Positions 14,182 to 25,806 of a stretch of 27,120 nt of DNA are shown piece by piece. Below the pieces are notes generated by a model. That model worked only from the letters and a program-made list of their open reading frames with translations, searched no databases and was not told the DNA's origin. The stretch spans positions 1-27,120 of IMG/VR virus record IMGVR_UViG_3300042691_026894. One strand, written 5' to 3'. The DNA comes from a virus. The position numbers were made by a program, and so were the translations under genes. Each line of letters begins with the position of its first letter. Position 1 is the stretch's first letter.

Positions 14182-14202
14182 GGTTTTTCTCCATATTTAA
14201 TA

Positions 14203-14221
14203 GGCGGGTTAATTACCCGCC
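14203..14221 (-). terminator. Hairpin after the coat gene (partial terminator or processing site)
   Basis: A perfect 7-bp inverted repeat (GGCGGGT / ACCCGCC) with a 5-nt loop (TAATT) lies in the 49-bp gap between coat stop and next start, the only sizeable gap in the late block. On the minus strand it is followed by an A/T-rich stretch (TATTAAATAT) but not a clean U-run. It may reduce read-through or protect the 3' end of coat mRNA. Confidence 0.5.
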
Positions 14222-14230
14222 CAATCACAG

Positions 14231-15430
14231 TTAGGAAATCTTTGCAATCATGTTCATGCCGGGCATTGAACACTCAAGCTGAGCGTAAGAGCAAAGCTGA
14301 ATGTCGACACCGTCGATAGTTTGCGAGCGAAGAACTCGCAGACCGTCGGCATCAAAGATGCGAATTGCTGGCCCAAGGGAAGCGAGTTCCCAGGTATCCA
14401 TCTGGAATATGAATGCATAGTCATATGGAATCCATCGATCAGAATACACCTTGCAAATGCCATTTTGGCCAGTAATTTGCAGGCCCTGGAATCCGACGTT
14501 TCCAATTCGCTCGTTTATGATAACGACTTTCGATCCGAGCGAGTTCGCCAGATCATTGAACTTCAAAGGGTTCAGAAAAATATGGCTCGGCATCCCGCCT
14601 TCACGGCCAAGAATCGCCATACCTGCGGTCAATCCCTCTTCGATCGGGAGCGCCGAATAGTCCTTGAACCACCCACCAAGGCGAGTCTCGTCGACGTTAC
14701 GGGTAACGCCAAAAAACGATGCGCCAAGCGCTGTTACGCGAGCACTTGTACCAATAGGAATCCAAGCCTGTGCACCCTTCAACCCGGCACCTTTGTCGCC
14801 GCGTGGGAACAGGTAATCGTTGTCTACGAAACCAGTAATCGAGCCGCTGAAAGTGAATGTTCCAGCTTCGCGATCTACTGCTGTAACAGTGATATATCCC
14901 GTTCTGACAGTTGTGCCGCTTGTGTCGTTGTAGCCTTCGAGTTCCTGCCCTACCTCAAAATTTACGATGTCGTTTGGTTCTGTGAGAGTAACATCGGAAC
15001 CAGAAACCGATGCACGTCGACCGATCGCATAGGAGCCATCCGAACAAACGGCAAACCCAAGAGAGTTTGCTAGGCTGTCAAAAGCGCCCTGCATTTCGTC
15101 TTTTAGCGCGTCTGCAAATGCTCCGTCATTGTCTTTTGTAGCAAGGATAGTCTCGTTTGTAACAGATGCAAACGAGTAGTTAGAAGAACGAGTGGTCAAA
15201 AATGCCACTCGGCGACCGTAGCTAGAACCACCCTTAGCAACGCTAAAGTTGGTACTTCGGTTCTGTGGGTTGGTGTGTTTTACGCTTCTTTTGCGTACTT
15301 CACCAACAAAATTCTCGTCTTTCTTTAGCATGGCAAAGAAAGGTCGATTCTGATAGGTCAAATCATAGATAACGTCCTGTGGGTACATTTCCTTGAGCAT
15401 TGCACTTGCGCGGGTAATATCTAGCGTCAT
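14231..15430 (-). CDS. Major capsid (coat) protein
   Basis: 399 residues. ATG at 15430 with AAGGA/GAGAGA upstream, 4 nt after the scaffold stop. It is placed directly after portal and scaffold. The sequence opens MTLDITRASAMLKEMYPQD. A helix KDNDGAFADALKDEMQGAFDSLANSLG (about 98-125) looks like the HK97 spine helix. Residues about 130-210 form a beta-rich insertion (SGSDVTLTEPND, GTFTFSGSITGF). The end has the A-domain style run SHIFLNPLKFNDLANSLGSKVV and a closing GVDIQLCSYAQLECSMPGMN. The HK97 fold is expected for any tailed-phage coat. Identification rests on gene order plus this layout, and I consider it secure. Confidence 0.87.
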   Translation of the reverse strand: MTLDITRASAMLKEMYPQDVIYDLTYQNRPFFAMLKKDENFVGEVRKRSVKHTNPQNRSTNFSVAKGGSSYGRRVAFLTTRSSNYSFASVTNETILATKDNDGAFADALKDEMQGAFDSLANSLGFAVCSDGSYAIGRRASVSGSDVTLTEPNDIVNFEVGQELEGYNDTSGTTVRTGYITVTAVDREAGTFTFSGSITGFVDNDYLFPRGDKGAGLKGAQAWIPIGTSARVTALGASFFGVTRNVDETRLGGWFKDYSALPIEEGLTAGMAILGREGGMPSHIFLNPLKFNDLANSLGSKVVIINERIGNVGFQGLQITGQNGICKVYSDRWIPYDYAFIFQMDTWELASLGPAIRIFDADGLRVLRSQTIDGVDIQLCSYAQLECSMPGMNMIAKIS

Positions 15431-18282: not shown

Positions 18283-18533
18283 GGCGTTTCTCCCAGTAAA
18301 TCAGCTTCGTATTTTTGACGCTCTTTTTCGTACAATTCTTGCTCTGATATAGACATCGGCCCCTTATTTCCATCACTAGAAAAAGGTGATCCATCCATAG
18401 GATTATAGATAACATCCCTATCCATTACCAACTCGACTTCAATATCGGCTGTCTTATATTTCAGGCTACTGACATTGTGCTTTTTAGCCAATACCATCAA
18501 ACTCTCTGCCACATTATCCAAAACATGAATCAT
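18279..18533 (-). CDS. Small hypothetical protein between TerL and portal
   Basis: 84 residues from the ATG at 18533, which overlaps the TerL stop by 4 nt (ATGA) and has AAAGGG 8 nt upstream. A longer reading from 18554 would push further into TerL and has no comparable SD. The N-terminus MIHVLDNVAESLMVLAKKHN is an amphipathic helix. The C-terminus is charged and helical (EQELYEKERQKYEADLLGE). Short coupled genes at this place in other phages are often of unknown role. It shares a 4-nt overlap with portal too, so it is locked into the packaging operon. I do not recognise the family. Confidence 0.7.
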   Translation of the reverse strand: MIHVLDNVAESLMVLAKKHNVSSLKYKTADIEVELVMDRDVIYNPMDGSPFSSDGNKGPMSISEQELYEKERQKYEADLLGETP

Positions 18534-19987
18534 GCTAACGCCCTTTCTAGCCAATTAGAATTATCTTGCCTCATGCTACGCTCGATTTTTTCTATCATTT
18601 CCCTCTCTGTTTTCTTCCAATATTCTGCGCTTCCGTACATTGGCTCTATATCCTTCTCGCGATAAAAGTAGTGCCGTGCCTTACGGTACGCATACAATGC
18701 CGAGTCACATAGGTCATTCGGCATGTCTGGATGTTCCTTGTTGCCAGACTTGTCTTTGCACAACGCCCTATATTGCGCACCCAACGGCTCACATTGCCGC
18801 AAAAGCTTGAAGCGTTCCTCTCTAAAGTCTCCATTAACCAGCTCTATAAAGGCCATCTTTTCGCTCTTTTCGGCGGCCTCACAGGGAATACCCCACCGTT
18901 GCCTAAACTCTTCCACGATTGCCTTGCCGAGCCCCCCGCAATCGATCACAGTGTCGTCTGTTTTCCAGCGCGATTGTAAAGCGAGAGTCAAACCCGCCCA
19001 CTGGGAGGGAATCCAACCAGCGTGCTTTTCCGTGTGCACTGCGTATCCCGACGGGCAATCCTCGGACCACGCGACTACAGTCCATGCAGCGCTGTCGCTG
19101 TAACCCAGGTCGACACCCAACACGTGGTGCCACTCACAGGCCCCTGGCAGTTCGTCAGTGTAGTCTCGGCCCGGCACGAACTTGTAAATCAACGCATCGG
19201 GATCTTCTGTCCACACATTGCAGTACTCTCGGAGATAGGTTGGGTTGTCGTCCGTCCACCGCCGCCGGTTTTTGAGCTCAATTATCCATTCCCGCGCGTG
19301 AGGGAGGTACGTGTTGTCGAGAACGCTCCATTTGTGCAGTTCCCAATGCTCACCCGGATCGATACAGGCCCGATAAAACGGCCCTGTAAGGGTCGGCCCC
19401 GGGGAGCCGACCATGATCAAGGCACCGTTGTAATCAAGCAACGCCGGCTCAATTACATCCTCAATTACGTAGTCTAGGTGTTCGCCAAACGATGCCGCTT
19501 CGTCGACAACGCAAATACAATAGGCATCGCCGCGCAAACGCTCAACCACGTTCTCCTGATCGGCACCGTACAACATAATCTTTGCGCCGTTGGGAAGCAT
19601 TGCCGTAAGGTCGGACTCGTTAAATTCTAGCGGAATATTGTACTGTGCTTTGAGTTTCTTGAGCTTAGGCCAAAGCAAATTCTTGGCGCTCTTGCGCGTC
19701 AAGGCGAGGTATAGAGCCGTTGAATTGGGGTTAAGCGCCGCTGCGAGAAGCAGGCAAACACATGCGGCCTCTGTTTTTCCGGCTCGACGTGTGCATTGGG
19801 CAATTTTTGCTTTAGACGGAGAAAGAACGAAAGCTTTTTGCTGCGCGAATAGCGAATGAATTACCGCGCTTTTCCAGTCCTGCCTGGTTGGGGAGACTAA
19901 TTGCAGTTTACTCTTCTGCCGCCTCATCAACTCCTGTTGAATTAGCAGCTGCGAGTAAAGCATCTCCTCTTTCGTCAACGATCTCAA
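18530..19987 (-). CDS. terL: Terminase large subunit (ATPase/nuclease)
   Basis: 485 residues if translation starts at the TTG at 19987 (CGGAG 6 nt upstream). Alternatives are ATG at 19963 or ATG at 19927 (CAGGAG 4 nt upstream, smaller overlap with terS). I keep the long form because the LTKEEMLYSQLLIQQELMRRQ helix resembles N-termini of related terminases. The ATPase domain has Walker A CTRRAGKTE (about 65-73) and Walker B CICVVDEA (about 157-164) with catalytic Glu 163. The RNase H-like nuclease domain has GVDLGYSDS (Asp 293), TVIDCGG (Asp 349) and NDLCDSALYA (Asp 425/428). It cuts concatemers and drives DNA into the portal. All key residues are present. Confidence 0.93.
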   Translation of the reverse strand: MRSLTKEEMLYSQLLIQQELMRRQKSKLQLVSPTRQDWKSAVIHSLFAQQKAFVLSPSKAKIAQCTRRAGKTEAACVCLLLAAALNPNSTALYLALTRKSAKNLLWPKLKKLKAQYNIPLEFNESDLTAMLPNGAKIMLYGADQENVVERLRGDAYCICVVDEAASFGEHLDYVIEDVIEPALLDYNGALIMVGSPGPTLTGPFYRACIDPGEHWELHKWSVLDNTYLPHAREWIIELKNRRRWTDDNPTYLREYCNVWTEDPDALIYKFVPGRDYTDELPGACEWHHVLGVDLGYSDSAAWTVVAWSEDCPSGYAVHTEKHAGWIPSQWAGLTLALQSRWKTDDTVIDCGGLGKAIVEEFRQRWGIPCEAAEKSEKMAFIELVNGDFREERFKLLRQCEPLGAQYRALCKDKSGNKEHPDMPNDLCDSALYAYRKARHYFYREKDIEPMYGSAEYWKKTEREMIEKIERSMRQDNSNWLERALA

Positions 19988-20408
19988 TATCTACTCCGTC
20001 CTCAATTGCCATCAGCCGCAAAACTAAATCTTCCTCGCTCATCTGTGTAACACTATGCCGCAGGTCCGCCTGAACCTCAACTTTGCGCCCAAACACGCTA
20101 CTGTGGCGACGTTCTAGCATCCACGCGGCCGCTCTCCAATCCTTTCTACTTGATGCCATTATTCTGGAAACTAACTCTATCTGTTGCATGTGTTTGGCGT
20201 TGGCTATTATCTCCCAAAACCCTTCCATGCCAGCCTCGCCATCTTCTTCCATTTTCTTCCACTTGTAGACGGTATATGGTGCCGTTGCTGCGCACCTACA
20301 GGCATCGTTAAACGTGAGCCCCGCTGCAATCCCTTCAGCTATTTTATGAGCGGCAACAAAACGCTCCTCTAGGCTTTTAACCCTACCGCTTGTCTTTCGG
20401 TAATTCAC
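19908..20408 (-). CDS. terS: Terminase small subunit
   Basis: About 166 residues. I favour the GTG at 20408, with GGGGA about 8 nt upstream; a TTG two codons earlier is the alternative. An N-terminal helix-turn-helix is seen at AHKIAEGIAAGLTFNDACRCAATAPYTVYKWKKM (residues about 22-56), with 'Y..yKW' as the recognition helix end. A central helical region follows (AKHMQQIELVSRIMASSRKDWRAAAWMLERRHSSVFG), and the RRHS..FGRK.EV motif is typical of TerS. The tail is acidic. It recognises the packaging site and regulates TerL. The start overlaps the previous gene by about 26 nt, and its end overlaps the long form of TerL by 80 nt. Confidence 0.85.
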   Translation of the reverse strand: MNYRKTSGRVKSLEERFVAAHKIAEGIAAGLTFNDACRCAATAPYTVYKWKKMEEDGEAGMEGFWEIIANAKHMQQIELVSRIMASSRKDWRAAAWMLERRHSSVFGRKVEVQADLRHSVTQMSEEDLVLRLMAIEDGVDIEIVDERGDALLAAANSTGVDEAAEE

Positions 20409-20628
20409 GCACAAAGTCCCCGCTTACTTCGTCAATTGTTATGTTAATTGAAGACAAGAAATCTCTAGCACAATCCTCGCATAGGTAAATCTGGTATACA
20501 GTATAGCGCCTAGTGTTTGGTGTTCTCAGGTTGAAATGCATCTTCCCTGTAGCACCAATTCGGCTTTGTTCATGCTTTATCTCTTTAGTTCCGCATCTCC
20601 AACATCTCAATTTGTCTTGTTTTGACAT
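20383..20628 (-). CDS. Small zinc-ribbon protein leading the late block
   Basis: 81 residues. The ATG at 20628 has GGGGA with 7-nt spacing. Two cysteine pairs, CWRCG (residues 9-13) and CEDCA (about 50-54), are separated by a beta-type segment (TGKMHFNLRTPNTRRYTVYQIYLCEDC). This is the usual spacing of a treble-clef or zinc-ribbon fold, so it probably binds one zinc ion. It overlaps terS and is the first clear gene downstream of the proposed late promoter. Its role could be nucleic-acid binding or regulation, but there is nothing in the sequence to decide. Confidence 0.72.
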   Translation of the reverse strand: MSKQDKLRCWRCGTKEIKHEQSRIGATGKMHFNLRTPNTRRYTVYQIYLCEDCARDFLSSINITIDEVSGDFVRELPKDKR

Positions 20629-20630
20629 GG

Positions 20631-20858
20631 TTAATTCCCCAAAGTAGTTTGACGCTTTAGCTTCATATCAGCTATAATAGCATCTAAATGGTCAAAACAA
20701 AAAATTCCAATGTCAGGATCATGCCTCTCGTTTTCCCCGGCCGTTCTGTATACTCGCGAGCATTCCCAAAAAACGCTAATGGAATTTACCAGATAGCCGT
20801 AAGTGATCACTATTTGCGTCAGTTGGAGGCTCCAGCTTGACACTCCAACTGAGCGCAT
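20631..20858 (-). CDS. Possible small Cys-containing protein (alternative to the plus-strand 50-residue reading)
   Basis: The frame ends with TAA only 2 nt before the next minus-strand ATG, a spacing typical of operon partners. It encodes a plausible tail with WECSRVYRTAGENERHDPDIG followed by IFCFDHLDAIIADMK, resembling a small zinc-binding protein. Against it: no start codon has a clear SD. ATG 20858 is used here; GTG 20843 and GTG 20810 are also possible. The region is also covered by promoters and a plus-strand reading in the same codon register. It is mutually exclusive, as a main product, with the plus-strand ORF at 20688. Confidence 0.3.
   Translation of the reverse strand: MRSVGVSSWSLQLTQIVITYGYLVNSISVFWECSRVYRTAGENERHDPDIGIFCFDHLDAIIADMKLKRQTTLGN
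20649..20678 (+). promoter_or_regulatory. Candidate sigma70 promoter, rightward, TTGACG-18-TATAAT
   Basis: The -35 box TTGACG (20649-20654) matches 5 of 6 consensus bases. The -10 TATAAT (20673-20678) matches 6 of 6. The spacer is 18 bp. The predicted start is near 20685, only about 3 nt before the ATG of the 50-residue plus-strand ORF, so that transcript would be nearly leaderless. Confidence 0.55.
20674..20702 (-). promoter_or_regulatory. Candidate extended -10 promoter, leftward, for the late block
   Basis: On the minus strand, TGC TATTAT forms an extended -10 (-10 at 20674-20679, TG motif at 20681-20682), with a weak TTTTGT 17 bp upstream (20697-20702). It shares its A/T core with the rightward TATAAT. 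The predicted start is near 20667, giving a 40-nt leader to the zinc-ribbon gene at 20628 and then terS. Confidence 0.35.
20688..20840 (+). CDS. Possible 50-residue protein, first gene of the plus-strand island
   Basis: ATG at 20688 to TGA at 20840. The translation starts MVKTKNSNVRIMPLVFPGR and ends HYLRQLEAPA. It is basic at the N-terminus, with mixed hydrophobic and polar residues and no low complexity, so it reads as a plausible protein. There is no SD, but an almost consensus promoter puts the transcript start about 3 nt upstream, which would suit leaderless translation. The stop codon overlaps the -35 of the next promoter. The opposite strand is open in the same codon register, so one of the two may be a shadow. 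No family is recognised. Confidence 0.4.
   Translation: MVKTKNSNVRIMPLVFPGRSVYSRAFPKNANGIYQIAVSDHYLRQLEAPA
20802..20811. promoter_or_regulatory. 10-bp palindrome, operator-like
   Basis: AGTGATCACT is a perfect palindrome located between the two rightward promoters. Short palindromes of this size can be half of a repressor or activator site. No second copy was noticed nearby. The function is inferred only from its place. Confidence 0.3.
20820..20851. promoter_or_regulatory. Perfect 9-bp inverted repeat overlapping a -35 box (candidate operator)
   Basis: CAGTTGGAG (20820-20828) and CTCCAACTG (20843-20851) are exact inverted copies separated by 14 bp. The intervening stretch contains the whole -35 TTGACA (20837-20842). 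A dimeric repressor bound here would block that promoter. Confidence 0.5.
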
Positions 20859-20865
20859 GTATTGT
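20837..20865 (+). promoter_or_regulatory. Candidate sigma70 promoter of the plus-strand island, TTGACA-17-TATTGT
   Basis: A perfect -35 TTGACA (20837-20842), a 17-bp spacer and a -10 TATTGT (20860-20865, 4 of 6). The predicted transcription start is near 20872, giving a leader of about 42 nt before the 20914 start codon. The -35 lies within the inverted repeat at 20820-20851. Confidence 0.6.
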
Positions 20866-20872
20866 AACCACA

Positions 20873-20895
20873 TGGCCGAGCAAGGTGCTCTGCCA
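20873..20895 (+). ncRNA. 5'-terminal mRNA hairpin of the plus-strand island
   Basis: TGGC-c-GAGCA / TGCTC-t-GCCA form a 9-pair stem with one C/T mismatch and a 3-nt loop (AGG), beginning at about the predicted transcript start. A second, mutually exclusive 5-bp stem (GTGCT 20885-20889 with AGCAC 20896-20900) ends just before the SD. It could protect the mRNA 5' end or switch access to the SD. It is not a known riboswitch class. Confidence 0.4.
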
Positions 20896-20913
20896 AGCAC
20901 TGGGAGATGAGAC

Positions 20914-21171
20914 ATGGATTTAACCGCAACTGTATTAGGAACGGATGTTATGAGTACCACACAGAACACTATCACGTTGCACCGCAGTCCCGATAGCAAG
21001 TGTTGGTTCGCAGTTTTCAGCGGGCCGCATGCCGCTGAAATAATTGATTTGTTCGACACCGCGGCAATGCCTCTTCCATGGTTCCACACTGCCAGAGCTG
21101 AAGATGTCCTGCGCTCGCAGGTCAAAGCGAATCCTGACTGCAAAGTCTTACTATCCGATGTGGAGGTGTAA
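20914..21171 (+). CDS. Conserved-style small phage protein, island gene 1
   Basis: 85 residues. The ATG at 20914 has GGGAG 7 nt upstream. It is mixed alpha/beta: a strand (TITLHRSPDSKCWFAVFSGP), then HAAEIIDLFDTAAMPLPWF, and a C-terminal helix-strand with ANPDCKVLLSDVEV. The pattern 'TLhrs.d..W.A.FsGPHA.EI..LFgT..LP..f' recurs, in my recollection, among short proteins of tailed phages without known function. There is no catalytic signature. Its stop is 1 nt from the next ATG, and it is the first securely coding gene of the rightward transcript. Confidence 0.72.
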   Translation: MDLTATVLGTDVMSTTQNTITLHRSPDSKCWFAVFSGPHAAEIIDLFDTAAMPLPWFHTARAEDVLRSQVKANPDCKVLLSDVEV

Positions 21172-21172
21172 A

Positions 21173-21562
21173 ATGGATACGACTTTCAATTGCGCGCCGT
21201 TATACCATTGTTACCCACGACAAATTGGCCCACAAGATGCATATTTAGAAATAGATAAAAATGGAGAAATAAGCGTCTATTGGAATCCTGAAATTGGCAA
21301 TGCTATACCTGCAAGAGTTTACAGCGGAGAGTCATTGCGTTATCTCGTTAGTTGCTATCTACGTCAATCAGATATAGATGATCTAATTGCCGACGTCGCG
21401 GAACTAGTACCTAGCCTGCTAGGCGAGAAAGACGACGACAACTGTCTTAGCGACGATGGTTATAAAATATCGCACGAAATCGAGTTGCTATGCTCTAACA
21501 GGGAGCCCTCCCCGCCGTGCTATGAACCTGATTGCGTTTACTGTTCAAGTTTCGAAGACTAA
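21173..21562 (+). CDS. Conserved-style phage hypothetical protein with Cys-rich tail, island gene 2
   Basis: 129 residues. The ATG at 21173 sits behind a near-perfect GGAGGTG SD, one base after the previous stop. The first half (AYLEIDKNGEISVYWNPEIGNAIPARVYSGESLRYLV) is beta-rich. A 'leld..g.v...wn.eigNavP..v..g..lry' pattern occurs in unannotated phage and plasmid proteins. The second half is helical and acidic (DDLIADVAELVPSLLGEKDDD). The last 20 residues hold several cysteines (CYEPDCVYCSSFED) that could bind metal. It is coupled to its neighbour. Function is unknown. Confidence 0.75.
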   Translation: MDTTFNCAPLYHCYPRQIGPQDAYLEIDKNGEISVYWNPEIGNAIPARVYSGESLRYLVSCYLRQSDIDDLIADVAELVPSLLGEKDDDNCLSDDGYKISHEIELLCSNREPSPPCYEPDCVYCSSFED

Positions 21563-21574
21563 AAGGATACTGCC

Positions 21575-21799
21575 GTGGAATGTAAAATGTTTGAATGCTT
21601 TTGGTGTAAGAAGCCGCTTCGAGAAGATGAATTGGTTGGTGAATTATTCCGCGAGGCATTGCCAATTTGCGCTGAATGCGACAATGATGTTACTGAGCAC
21701 ATTATAAAAACTGGCAACGAATTGGCTTTTCATGCCGCCTTAAAAAAGGAAATAGATTCAATGATAGATAGCACAATGGAAATGCAATCTGTTTTATGA
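21575..21799 (+). CDS. Small zinc-finger-like protein, island gene 3
   Basis: 74 residues from the GTG at 21575 with AAAAGGA about 7 nt upstream. An internal ATG four codons in lacks its own SD. Cysteine pairs CFWCKKP (residues about 8-14) and CAEC (about 33-36) frame a short linker (REDELVGELFREALPI), consistent with a LIM/treble-clef-like zinc site. A C-terminal helix follows (ALKKEIDSMIDSTMEMQ). It lies 12 nt after the previous stop. Probably a metal-stabilised binding protein; no target is visible. Confidence 0.72.
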   Translation: MECKMFECFWCKKPLREDELVGELFREALPICAECDNDVTEHIIKTGNELAFHAALKKEIDSMIDSTMEMQSVL

Positions 21800-21809
21800 G
21801 AGGAAAGGG

Positions 21810-22001
21810 ATGAATGCGGTACTATTTACGCGATACTTATGTGTGGAATGCAAGCGATTTGTCGATAAGGATTGGGTACAAAAAGAGATGAGAGCAGGGA
21901 AGGAGATAGACGAACTATGCTGCTACCACTGCAAAAACTGCGGGATAATTGAAACTGAAACACCGAAGCGAAGGAGCGGAACGATATGCGCCCTGAAATG
22001 A
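21810..22001 (+). CDS. Small zinc-ribbon protein, island gene 4
   Basis: 63 residues. ATG at 21810 with AGGAAAGGG immediately upstream. CVEC (residues about 11-14) and CCYHCKNCG (about 37-45) give five or more candidate zinc ligands. The spacer helix is FVDKDWVQKEMRAGKEID. The end is basic (TPKRRSGT). The 3' end overlaps the next start by 16 nt. A nucleic-acid- or protein-binding ribbon is plausible. I do not recognise a family. Confidence 0.7.
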   Translation: MNAVLFTRYLCVECKRFVDKDWVQKEMRAGKEIDELCCYHCKNCGIIETETPKRRSGTICALK

Positions 22002-22273
22002 CAGAAAAGGAAATTTGCGACTTACTTGACAAAGACTGCCAGCCACAGGCCCCCGCAACTGCGCCGCTTGTTTTGCGCTGCTACGCTAGGCAAGCATATG
22101 GCCAGCTGCGGATCTATTGCGAGGAGAGCGCTTGGATACGCGACCTGCTAGGCCAGACGACGATCCTACCGCGCCAGATCCAGGCATTGCAGGCCATAGG
22201 CATAAAATTTTCGCTGGAACGAAATAGAGACGTTCCCAAAGAACTTGCGCAACTTTTTGACGAACAACATTGA
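21986..22273 (+). CDS. Hypothetical protein, island gene 5
   Basis: 95 residues. The ATG at 21986 has AAGGAG with 9-nt spacing inside the end of gene 4. The protein opens with a helix (MTEKEICDLLDKDC), followed by strand-helix elements (RCYARQAYGQLRIYCEESAWIRDLLGQT) and a helical end (RQIQALQAIGIKF then PKELAQLFDEQH). There is no transmembrane segment and no pairwise cysteine motif. Base use is G/C-richer than its neighbours in 22020-22190, which may hint at separate origin. Function is unknown. It is the last secure gene on the plus strand before convergent minus genes. Confidence 0.7.
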   Translation: MRPEMTEKEICDLLDKDCQPQAPATAPLVLRCYARQAYGQLRIYCEESAWIRDLLGQTTILPRQIQALQAIGIKFSLERNRDVPKELAQLFDEQH

Positions 22274-23591: not shown

Positions 23592-23751
23592 CACACTCAA
23601 GCAACGCCACACGTCGGAAAAAAATCCTAATAATCCCTTCGTCACATACATCTCGGTTAAACTCCTTAGCGCCGAACGCCTCAGCTTTTTCAATTACATC
23701 CGCGACTTCTTCGGGTTTACATTCAATTTTGTATATGGTGGGTAGCTCCAT
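23584..23751 (-). CDS. Short hypothetical early protein, 55 residues
   Basis: ATG at 23751 with AAGGG 6 nt upstream, 3 nt after the preceding stop, to TAA at 23584. The translation begins MELPTIYKIECKPEEVADVI and ends RRVALLECDD. It has a beta-helix-beta pattern (YKIEC, EEVADVIEKAEAFG, IIRIFFRRVALLE) typical of tiny ferredoxin-like folds. Good SD, tight junctions on both sides and no repeats make it a likely real gene that is easy to miss because of its length. The function is unknown. Confidence 0.65.
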   Translation of the reverse strand: MELPTIYKIECKPEEVADVIEKAEAFGAKEFNRDVCDEGIIRIFFRRVALLECDD

Positions 23752-23754
23752 CCG

Positions 23755-24006
23755 CTACCCTTTTTTTGACAGCTGTGCTCGTGCGTATTCAAGAAATTTA
23801 GCTACTATCTTCCGCCGCTGGTCACGAGTAGCAGCGCTGTAGCCTTCATCCTCAAACCAAGCATCGACGTTTTCTTGGCTCATTTTGTAGCCGCTTTCCT
23901 TTGCCCACTTGCGAAACTTGTTGATACAAATCGTGTAGATTGTGGCGGTAGACTCTTTAACTCCCATCTCACGGCACCAACGGACAATCAAATCATCAAA
24001 ACTCAT
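23755..24006 (-). CDS. Stand-alone integrase core-binding (SAM-like) domain protein
   Basis: 83 residues. The ATG at 24006 has a near-ideal GGAGGTGA SD. The same frame is open upstream to 24225, overlapping recT, but no upstream start matches this SD. Helices SFDDLIVRWCREMG, TATIYTICINKFRKWAKESGYK, SQENVDAWFEDEG and SAATRDQRRKIVAKFLEYARAQL match the four-helix N-terminal DNA-binding domain of tyrosine recombinases: 'S..T...Y...l..F..W......', then 't....r...l..fl.y'. The catalytic R-H-R-Y domain is absent; the protein ends after this domain. It may bind DNA as an accessory or regulator. It follows recT after a 112-bp gap. Confidence 0.6.
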   Translation of the reverse strand: MSFDDLIVRWCREMGVKESTATIYTICINKFRKWAKESGYKMSQENVDAWFEDEGYSAATRDQRRKIVAKFLEYARAQLSKKG

Positions 24007-24118
24007 GTCATCACCTCCAAAGTTTTTCTTGTTTCTCAACGTTTCCCACAAGCCCTTGCTGTGCACGAACCAATACCCACCGTCGAAAGGCACCCAAACA
24101 GCACCTTTCGCAGCTAAA

Positions 24119-24943
24119 TTATCCTTGAAATCTATCGACACTATCCAACGCTTCGGCCTCAATTTGCAACCTCTCCGCACTGGTCGCAGCCCGCAGCGAA
24201 GCGTCGACCAGCGAACTCGTGTCATCTGCTCTTTCGTCTATCTCAATTGCTTTAGCAAATTCGTGCGACTTCGGCAAGCGTTTGCATAGCAGTTTGACCA
24301 CAGTTTTGATAGCCATCTGTTCAAAATCAGTGTCCCATGGAGTAGTCGCTCCCTCTCTACGTTTGCCCCGCGCCCGCTCCATAATTTTGTCCACTCGCCA
24401 GCGAGGCATCACTTCTGCCTCAACGCCTCCCCCAACCAAATTTGCGACTGCATAGGCTGCTATAACTGGCTGCTCTCCCTCACTCAACGACGGACGATGC
24501 TTGATTGTGATCTTCTCCCCCTTTTCCCACTCGAAAAAATCACCTTGACGAACGACATCAGCGTTAATCGAAACCACTGCCCCGCTCCGCCTCGCGAGTT
24601 CCACGAAACCACGATACCCTATCTGCAATTGAGCCTCTGTGCAGTTTAGTGCCCTGTTCCAGTACGGGATTAGATAGGCATATTGCATCGGCCCCACCGG
24701 CGAAAGACCGATAGAACACGACTCCATAACGCTTTGCAGTATGCTAATTTTCGAGCATTTTTGAAGCTCTGGTCTTTTTCGCATCTCTAAAATTACCGCG
24801 ACAGACAGCCGGTTTGCCGCGTCTGTTGCGCTTTTCGCGTTGCCCATCGCCGTCACAATTCTTTCGTGGTTTTTTTCGAGTAGTTGTTTTGTTTCTGCGA
24901 CGATATCCATTGATCCACCGGTCCTCGTTTCCAATTCGCTCAT
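24119..24943 (-). CDS. recT: RecT-family single-strand annealing protein
   Basis: 274 residues. The ATG at 24943 has GGAGGGG upstream. Conserved RecT core: SVMESCSIGLSPVGPMQYAYLIPYWNR (residues about 71-97), CTEAQLQIGYRGFVELARRSG (about 101-121), then DVVRQGDFFEWEKG and a basic helix ERARGKRREGATTPW followed by FEQMAIKTVVKLLCKRLPKS. All main RecT blocks are present at normal spacing and length. It anneals complementary single strands made by the exonuclease, promoting recombination and concatemer formation. It lies 29 bp after the exonuclease gene, as in recE-recT operons. The tail (after about 240) is variable, as usual. Confidence 0.92.
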   Translation of the reverse strand: MSELETRTGGSMDIVAETKQLLEKNHERIVTAMGNAKSATDAANRLSVAVILEMRKRPELQKCSKISILQSVMESCSIGLSPVGPMQYAYLIPYWNRALNCTEAQLQIGYRGFVELARRSGAVVSINADVVRQGDFFEWEKGEKITIKHRPSLSEGEQPVIAAYAVANLVGGGVEAEVMPRWRVDKIMERARGKRREGATTPWDTDFEQMAIKTVVKLLCKRLPKSHEFAKAIEIDERADDTSSLVDASLRAATSAERLQIEAEALDSVDRFQG

Positions 24944-24972: not shown

Positions 24973-25806
24973 TTAGTCAATCGCTTTACGTTTTTTGTAC
25001 CTCGGTGGAGGTACAGATATCACGTCAAATTCCCGATGCCAACCTTGCCTAATTCCTCTCAAATAATCCTCAACACCTAGCTCCATCCTTCTGAATGCAT
25101 CAACTAATCCCTCCATCTCGTAAGTATAGACTTGGACAGTATACGGCCATTTTGACTCAATTGCAACTAGTGCATAGCCAACTATTCCACAATCGTTTGC
25201 CGGAAAATGCTGAAGATATGCGCGAATGTACCACGCTGCCTTAAGGTCGTACCAGTAATCGCCGCAGTCTTGCGCGAATTTATCTGGCCGCGCATCCGAA
25301 CAAGTTTTTAGATCAACGATCCAGCCGGGCAAAAGTCTGTCGAGACGTGCCTTGCATTGAATAGTGTCGTTGTCGTGTTGTTCGCTCCAAAGTAGAGTAA
25401 CTTCGCTTTTCCCTTTGTCTCCGAACAACAAACCACGCGCTATATTATGCTCGTTTATTCGCTGTATACACGTTTGCACGGCGTGATAATCACTAGCCCT
25501 GACGCCGATCTTGCCGTTGCACTCTTTGGCCCAAGCTTTTGTACGTGCTCTCACCCCCGGTGAGACCACATGATACTCTCTAGCGAATCTCTCAGGTTCC
25601 AAAACAGCGCAATGCAAAAGCGTTCCGAAAGCCAAGCTGTCGCTTGTAGTAAATTCGCGCTCAGGATTGAGATAGCACTGATAATAGTGCCATAATCCAT
25701 GATCGCATATTGCAGTCAGCCCGGAAGCGTTTAACGCTGATATCCTTCTATACTCGGTATCCGGCATATCGTAATAGACACCATGCAGCCCCTCATGAAG
25801 CATCAT
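24973..25806 (-). CDS. RecE-like PD-(D/E)XK 5'-3' exonuclease
   Basis: 277 residues. ATG ATG at 25806 with AGAGGTG 4 nt upstream. The N-terminus GVYYDMPDTEYRRISALNASGL is a usual opening of phage PDDEXK exonucleases ('g.y.dmp...Y......S.S.l'). Catalytic layout: SLAFGTLLHCAVLEP with His 65 (about 57-71), Glu 135 (KSEVTLLW), CKARLDRL with Asp 156, and IVDLKT with Asp 165 and Lys 167. The last motif is 'YDLKAAWY' (about 186-193), where a Gln is common but Leu-Lys is present. It resects double-stranded ends to feed RecT, which is the next gene. No helicase domain is present, so this is the compact nuclease form. Confidence 0.88.
   Translation of the reverse strand: MMLHEGLHGVYYDMPDTEYRRISALNASGLTAICDHGLWHYYQCYLNPEREFTTSDSLAFGTLLHCAVLEPERFAREYHVVSPGVRARTKAWAKECNGKIGVRASDYHAVQTCIQRINEHNIARGLLFGDKGKSEVTLLWSEQHDNDTIQCKARLDRLLPGWIVDLKTCSDARPDKFAQDCGDYWYDLKAAWYIRAYLQHFPANDCGIVGYALVAIESKWPYTVQVYTYEMEGLVDAFRRMELGVEDYLRGIRQGWHREFDVISVPPPRYKKRKAID

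Follow-up and report, generated by a model that had tools for sequence, protein, structure and literature searches.

The 285-bp gap at positions 20629-20913, the sole intergenic gap longer than 78 bp in the stretch analysed, is well supported as the compact control region of a rightward transcription unit, and judging from its sequence it is probably the tandem-promoter and leader region of a five-gene rightward operon (R1-R5, 20914-22273) set between leftward gene blocks. The stretch, called the window below, is the whole of an IMG/VR virus entry of 27,120 bases, which may itself be incomplete (a fragment). Gene orientation, the pair of promoter matches, the dyad and the match to a terminator come directly from computation; what is said below on transcription is predicted. 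The region is ordinary though well defined, and it gives a precise map of one predicted transcription unit, with two starts, one candidate operator and one terminator, in a phage lineage for which no close relative in culture was found among the collections searched. The first-pass annotation had described a compact control region with back-to-back promoters and the architecture of a genetic switch; the control region stands for the rightward unit, but the back-to-back promoters and the switch do not. The switch reading is hereby corrected, and no lysogeny decision is to be sought here.

The leftward packaging and structural block begins at the left edge of the gap with a zinc-ribbon-like protein (znf81), followed by the small and large terminase subunits, portal and capsid. 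At the right end of the window another leftward block carries an exonuclease VIII-like gene (24973-25806) and a RecT gene (24119-24943). Between these leftward blocks stands the rightward island of five small genes, the only rightward block in the window, over which GC skew is positive; this turn to positive values is expected for a change of coding strand. The gap had been placed at an early/late boundary, a loose description in that the block to the right of the island, with RecT and the exonuclease, runs leftward too. The packaging-side genes next to the gap are as follows.

20383-20628, minus strand: zinc-ribbon-like protein of 81 aa (znf81), first gene of the packaging block, with CxxC pairs
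19908-20414, minus strand: terminase small subunit (phrog_4102, E 4.6e-16)
18530-19987, minus strand: terminase large subunit, TerL (phrog_2, E 5.3e-35)

All zinc matches of znf81 are sub-threshold, the best in Pfam being a zinc ribbon (E 0.004). In the late control of P2-type phages, a small zinc protein (Ogr) acts at the terminase/portal promoters. The window resembles that system in that a small protein with Cys pairs and a dyad both occur close to where the terminase block begins, but znf81 is without an Ogr-family match in Pfam, and a pair of dyad-controlled late promoters was not found here. Elsewhere in the window, a 132-bp repeat runs for 4.7 copies over positions 1-621, at the cut end of the record and within a large leftward tail-like gene, and a leftward gene at 23755-24225 has its only match in the SAM-like domain at the N terminus of phage integrases; an integrase catalytic domain was not seen in the window.

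Two sigma-70-type promoter matches, both directed at the rightward island, lie within the gap.

20649-20678, plus strand: P1, TTGACG-18-TATAAT (TTGACG at 20649-20654, TATAAT at 20673-20678), 11/12 matches
20837-20865, plus strand: P2, TTGACA-17-TATTGT, 10/12 matches

The predicted transcription starts are at about 20685-20687 for P1 and about 20872 for P2, and the distance between the two promoters is about 187 bp. Every position on both strands was scored with a sigma-70 weight matrix, whose E. coli-type frequencies were taken from general knowledge and may not be those of the host. On this E. coli-type scale the highest score anywhere in the window, on either strand, is that of P1 (14.2 bits), followed by that of P2 (12.45 bits). 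Among 200 shuffled windows, sites scoring at least as high as P1 occur at a mean of 0.14 per window and sites scoring at least as high as P2 at a mean of 1.5, while two such sites in one gap were met in 0 of 5000 shuffled gaps. Both sites combine −35 and −10 hexamers at a spacing of 16-18 bp with a score above chance, and the two rightward promoter sites proposed in the first-pass annotation, including the consensus TATAAT with TTGACG 18 bp upstream, are confirmed as present. Tandem sigma-70 early promoters occur in lytic phages. The arrangement is alike here in that two consensus promoters follow one another in an intergenic gap before a block of small genes; it differs in that leftward blocks flank this block on both sides and an inverted repeat surrounds the second promoter. 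P1 and P2, being of the host housekeeping sigma type, would be used by the RNA polymerase of the host, probably at an early stage of infection.

Downstream of the promoters the rightward island reads:

20914-21171, plus strand: R1, 85 aa, first gene of the rightward block (open reading frame and codon score; no homologs found)
21173-21562, plus strand: R2, 129 aa, function not assigned (weak match to phrog_25332, E 1.5e-4)
21575-21799, plus strand: R3, 74 aa, small CxxC...CxxC protein (no families at the cut-off)
21810-22001, plus strand: R4, 63 aa, small Cys-rich protein (no families at the cut-off)
21986-22273, plus strand: R5, 95 aa, function not assigned (open reading frame and codon score)
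23740-23760, plus strand: intrinsic terminator, GGGTAGC-loop-GCTACCC followed by TTTTTTT (7-bp GC-rich stem, seven T)

The codon scores of R1, R2, R3 and R5 exceed those of 96-99% of off-frame controls, and the scores of the R genes are low relative to the structural genes. R1 has an alternative start, the ATG at 20950, with AGGA upstream. The hairpin at 23740-23760 is the best plus-strand terminator in the window, and a hairpin with a T-tract this good is found in 3% of shuffled windows. No rightward genes were called between 22273 and this terminator, and the window holds no other rightward unit for it to serve. Rightward transcription would cross R1-R5 and may go on, antisense to small leftward genes, as far as 23740-23760. 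The hairpin also spans the stop and the start of two leftward genes and may serve those adjoining genes instead; because the same bases do both, 23760 is offered here as a possible end of the rightward unit and the assignment stays inferential.

Beside P2 the gap carries two further elements.

20802-20811, no strand: palindrome AGTGATCACT
20819-20852, no strand: inverted repeat TCAGTTGGAG-N14-CTCCAACTGA (arms 20819-20828 and 20843-20852), enclosing the P2 −35

The palindrome is where the first-pass annotation had put it, and the inverted repeat is present near P2 as well, with arms of 10 bp and not the 9 bp given there. With loops of up to 20 considered, this is the longest perfect inverted repeat in the window, whereas inverted repeats with arms of at least 9 bp number 1.8 per shuffled window. 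Short palindromes are slightly above chance in the gap (4 vs a shuffle mean of 1.4, P 0.048), three of the four CTCCARCT octamers of the window fall inside 20821-20850, and a hairpin at 20819-20852 appears in the folds of both strands. No repeated dyad or operator array was found in the gap, where one inverted repeat and three CTCCARCT half-boxes were seen. The repeat around the P2 −35 probably tunes P2, and may do so as an operator for a dimeric protein or as an RNA hairpin in the leader of the P1 transcript. A rightward frame of 50 aa at 20688-20840 begins with an ATG at the predicted P1 start, which would make it leaderless if real, and ends with its stop in the loop of the 20819-20852 hairpin; it counts as no more than a curiosity, with a codon score not distinguishable from off-frame controls, and no homologs were found for it.

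On the opposite strand, the core of P1 was proposed to act as an extended −10 toward the terminase block.

20674-20682, minus strand: TGCTATTAT, candidate extended −10, not above chance

The sequence is indeed present, read from 20682 to 20674, but as a promoter it is at chance level. Its best −35, TTGTTT, has a spacing of 15 bp, its rank is 47, and its score is matched by 28.5% and 33.8% of shuffled gaps in two tests; TGnTATAAT, with one mismatch allowed, occurs 24 times in the window against 23.2 expected. The −10-like reading to the left arises largely because the core GCTATAATAGC is a near-palindrome, so that a −10 on one strand almost forces one on the other. The leftward promoter therefore looks like chance, and the most likely source of transcripts for the packaging block is leftward transcription coming from upstream, or a promoter not of this consensus, rather than TGCTATTAT.

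A divergent switch, in which P1 and the overlapping leftward extended −10 compete for one core under a regulator that is one of the small uncharacterised proteins, could draw on this shared near-palindromic core, on the nearby dyads and on the relatives, which commonly have a divergent gap here and in two cases (L009 and L106) a good promoter toward the late block. We nevertheless consider it unlikely, as the leftward site is at chance level and the gap is without an operator array. HTH and repressor families were not found in the small flanking proteins on either side, which agrees with the earlier remark that no repressor gene of a known family adjoins the region. Relatives by TerL are nearly absent from bacterial genomes (3 MAG contigs in a pattern-based scan of 84,980 species genomes). 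A lysogeny switch is thus unsupported, because a repressor and a full integrase, of which there is only an N-terminal fragment, are absent and TerL has hardly any relatives in bacterial genomes; given a pattern-based scan and a record that is possibly incomplete, a temperate life style is rated as unlikely. Lysogeny switches described in the literature possess a repressor gene, divergent transcription and several operators. In the phi13 switch, a cI gene and a predicted mor gene are divergently transcribed, with three operator sites (PMC8516035). The window shares with the phi13 CI/mor region an intergenic region at the point of divergence, with promoter and dyad elements; unlike phi13, it yielded no repressor, and its leftward promoter does not exceed chance.

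Comparison with relatives bears on the operon reading from another side. No close relative covering the gap was found in the collections searched. A portal search gave two near-identical contigs, both beginning inside the portal gene, and the nearest relative in the TerL profile (L088, 59%) lies on a contig that ends inside terS. The 33-base exact pattern of P1 had no match in the collections searched, single-protein scans with znf81, R2 and RecT gave no relative covering the gap, and DNA comparison against phages and plasmids gave no match. The closest named phages by TerL are the HTVC010P-type podoviruses Skadi and HTVC010P (27-31% over half the protein). Skadi-7 resembles the window in having a block of small genes divergent from terminase, but these podoviruses show no similarity to the gap or the R genes of the window. 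Relatives with TerL about 40% identical are numerous. On the basis of crude gene calls, a divergent gap of about 40-1090 bp, beyond which other genes run in the opposite direction, precedes the packaging genes in many of those whose upstream sequence is long enough; in others the genes share one orientation and the non-coding gaps are long. That the packaging block of relatives is often headed by a divergent gap was counted for the operon reading; the R genes and the zinc protein were not found in the relatives at about 40% TerL identity. The gaps of 20 relatives hold a few good promoters, some of them one-sided, in no common arrangement.

In several of these gaps palindromic boxes form arrays that lie entirely, or for the most part, within the gap, with ten boxes each in L121 and L129, seven in L142, and four each in L108 and L092; a box array like these was not found in the window. 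In L121 (7424-7619) and L129 (7448-7643), the ten boxes are 13-bp palindromes such as TCGCAATTTGAGA at equal spacing in the gap that precedes the packaging genes, and L123 (2528-2590) has four 13-bp palindromic boxes of the TCGCAATTTGAGA type in the corresponding gap. The box stretch of these three loci folds with z down to −8, and their first packaging-side gene encodes a small protein that is HTH-like by eye. The seven boxes of L142 (4789-5079) and the four of L108 (2026-2130) are of the form TGAA-N6-TTCA, all copies of each locus lying inside the gap. In L095 (73-350) and its relatives L090, L092-L094, L096 and L097, tandem 10- and 20-bp repeats (ATACGTTGCC in L095) lie in the non-coding stretch before the packaging genes, and related loci have repeated pieces in common.

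The arrays suggest that in this clade the position serves for control or recognition; what the gap of the window does is not shown by them. Should they be operators, regulator specificity in virulent phages would change quickly at the head of the packaging block. A bolder proposal would make the gap of this mostly uncultivated TerL clade a fast-changing control site with lineage-specific operator-like boxes, of which the P2 dyad would be a minimal form, and would have the rightward unit also exert an antisense effect on the leftward early genes up to the terminator at 23760; we regard this as a rather slim prospect.

Counted against the operon reading, besides the E. coli-type matrix, the low codon scores of the R genes and the second possible use of the terminator hairpin, is a leftward frame of 170 aa that stays open through the gap and is coding-like in its last part. 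The gap might then be partly coding: a leftward gene, with its end at 20631, would be translated immediately before the zinc protein, and P1 would fall within a gene. The frame (20631-21143, 75-170 aa) has its stop 2 nt ahead of the ATG of the zinc protein; its codon score reaches 0.13 near 20644-20740. Yet over its whole length it scores below nearly all phage genes, its starts have poor ribosome sites, and no homologs or families were found (the 75-aa frame was searched). Antisense open frames of such length are common in the window, and the two best promoters would be a coincidence if the gap were coding. Such a gene is distinctly unlikely.

We consider it quite improbable that the gap encodes an RNA of about 200-300 nt with a structure of its own, whether free-standing or as the leader of the leftward packaging mRNA. 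The leftward strand from 20925 to 20625 does fold with z −4.6, 0 of 100 shuffles being as good, and 20701-20900 on that strand is fifth of 501 in a 200-nt folding scan. However, several coding stretches fold equally well or better, and the plus strand also folds (z −3.0), the behaviour that any dyad in DNA would give to either strand. Furthermore, a leftward promoter to make the RNA is absent, no relatives for covariation were found, and Rfam gave no match up to E 5 in 20300-21300; an Rfam search of the window together with ten relatives was likewise without a match. The lowest folding z in the window, −5.9, is at 14201-14500 on the plus strand, in the 3′ portion of the capsid gene.

That the dyad region serves packaging (as a pac site) or replication, as a recognition site beside the terminase genes and not for transcription control, is very doubtful. 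In favour are its position directly upstream of terS-terL, the location of the P22 pac site within the small terminase gene (PMC9611059) and the repeat arrays that relatives carry in the same gap; against it, the window has a single inverted repeat without an array, and the repeats of the relatives are unrelated in sequence. Among the TerL relatives, the TerL frame of L010 (1638-3797) seems to hold an intein-like insertion (CFVAGTKI...EYFAGGVTSRNC).
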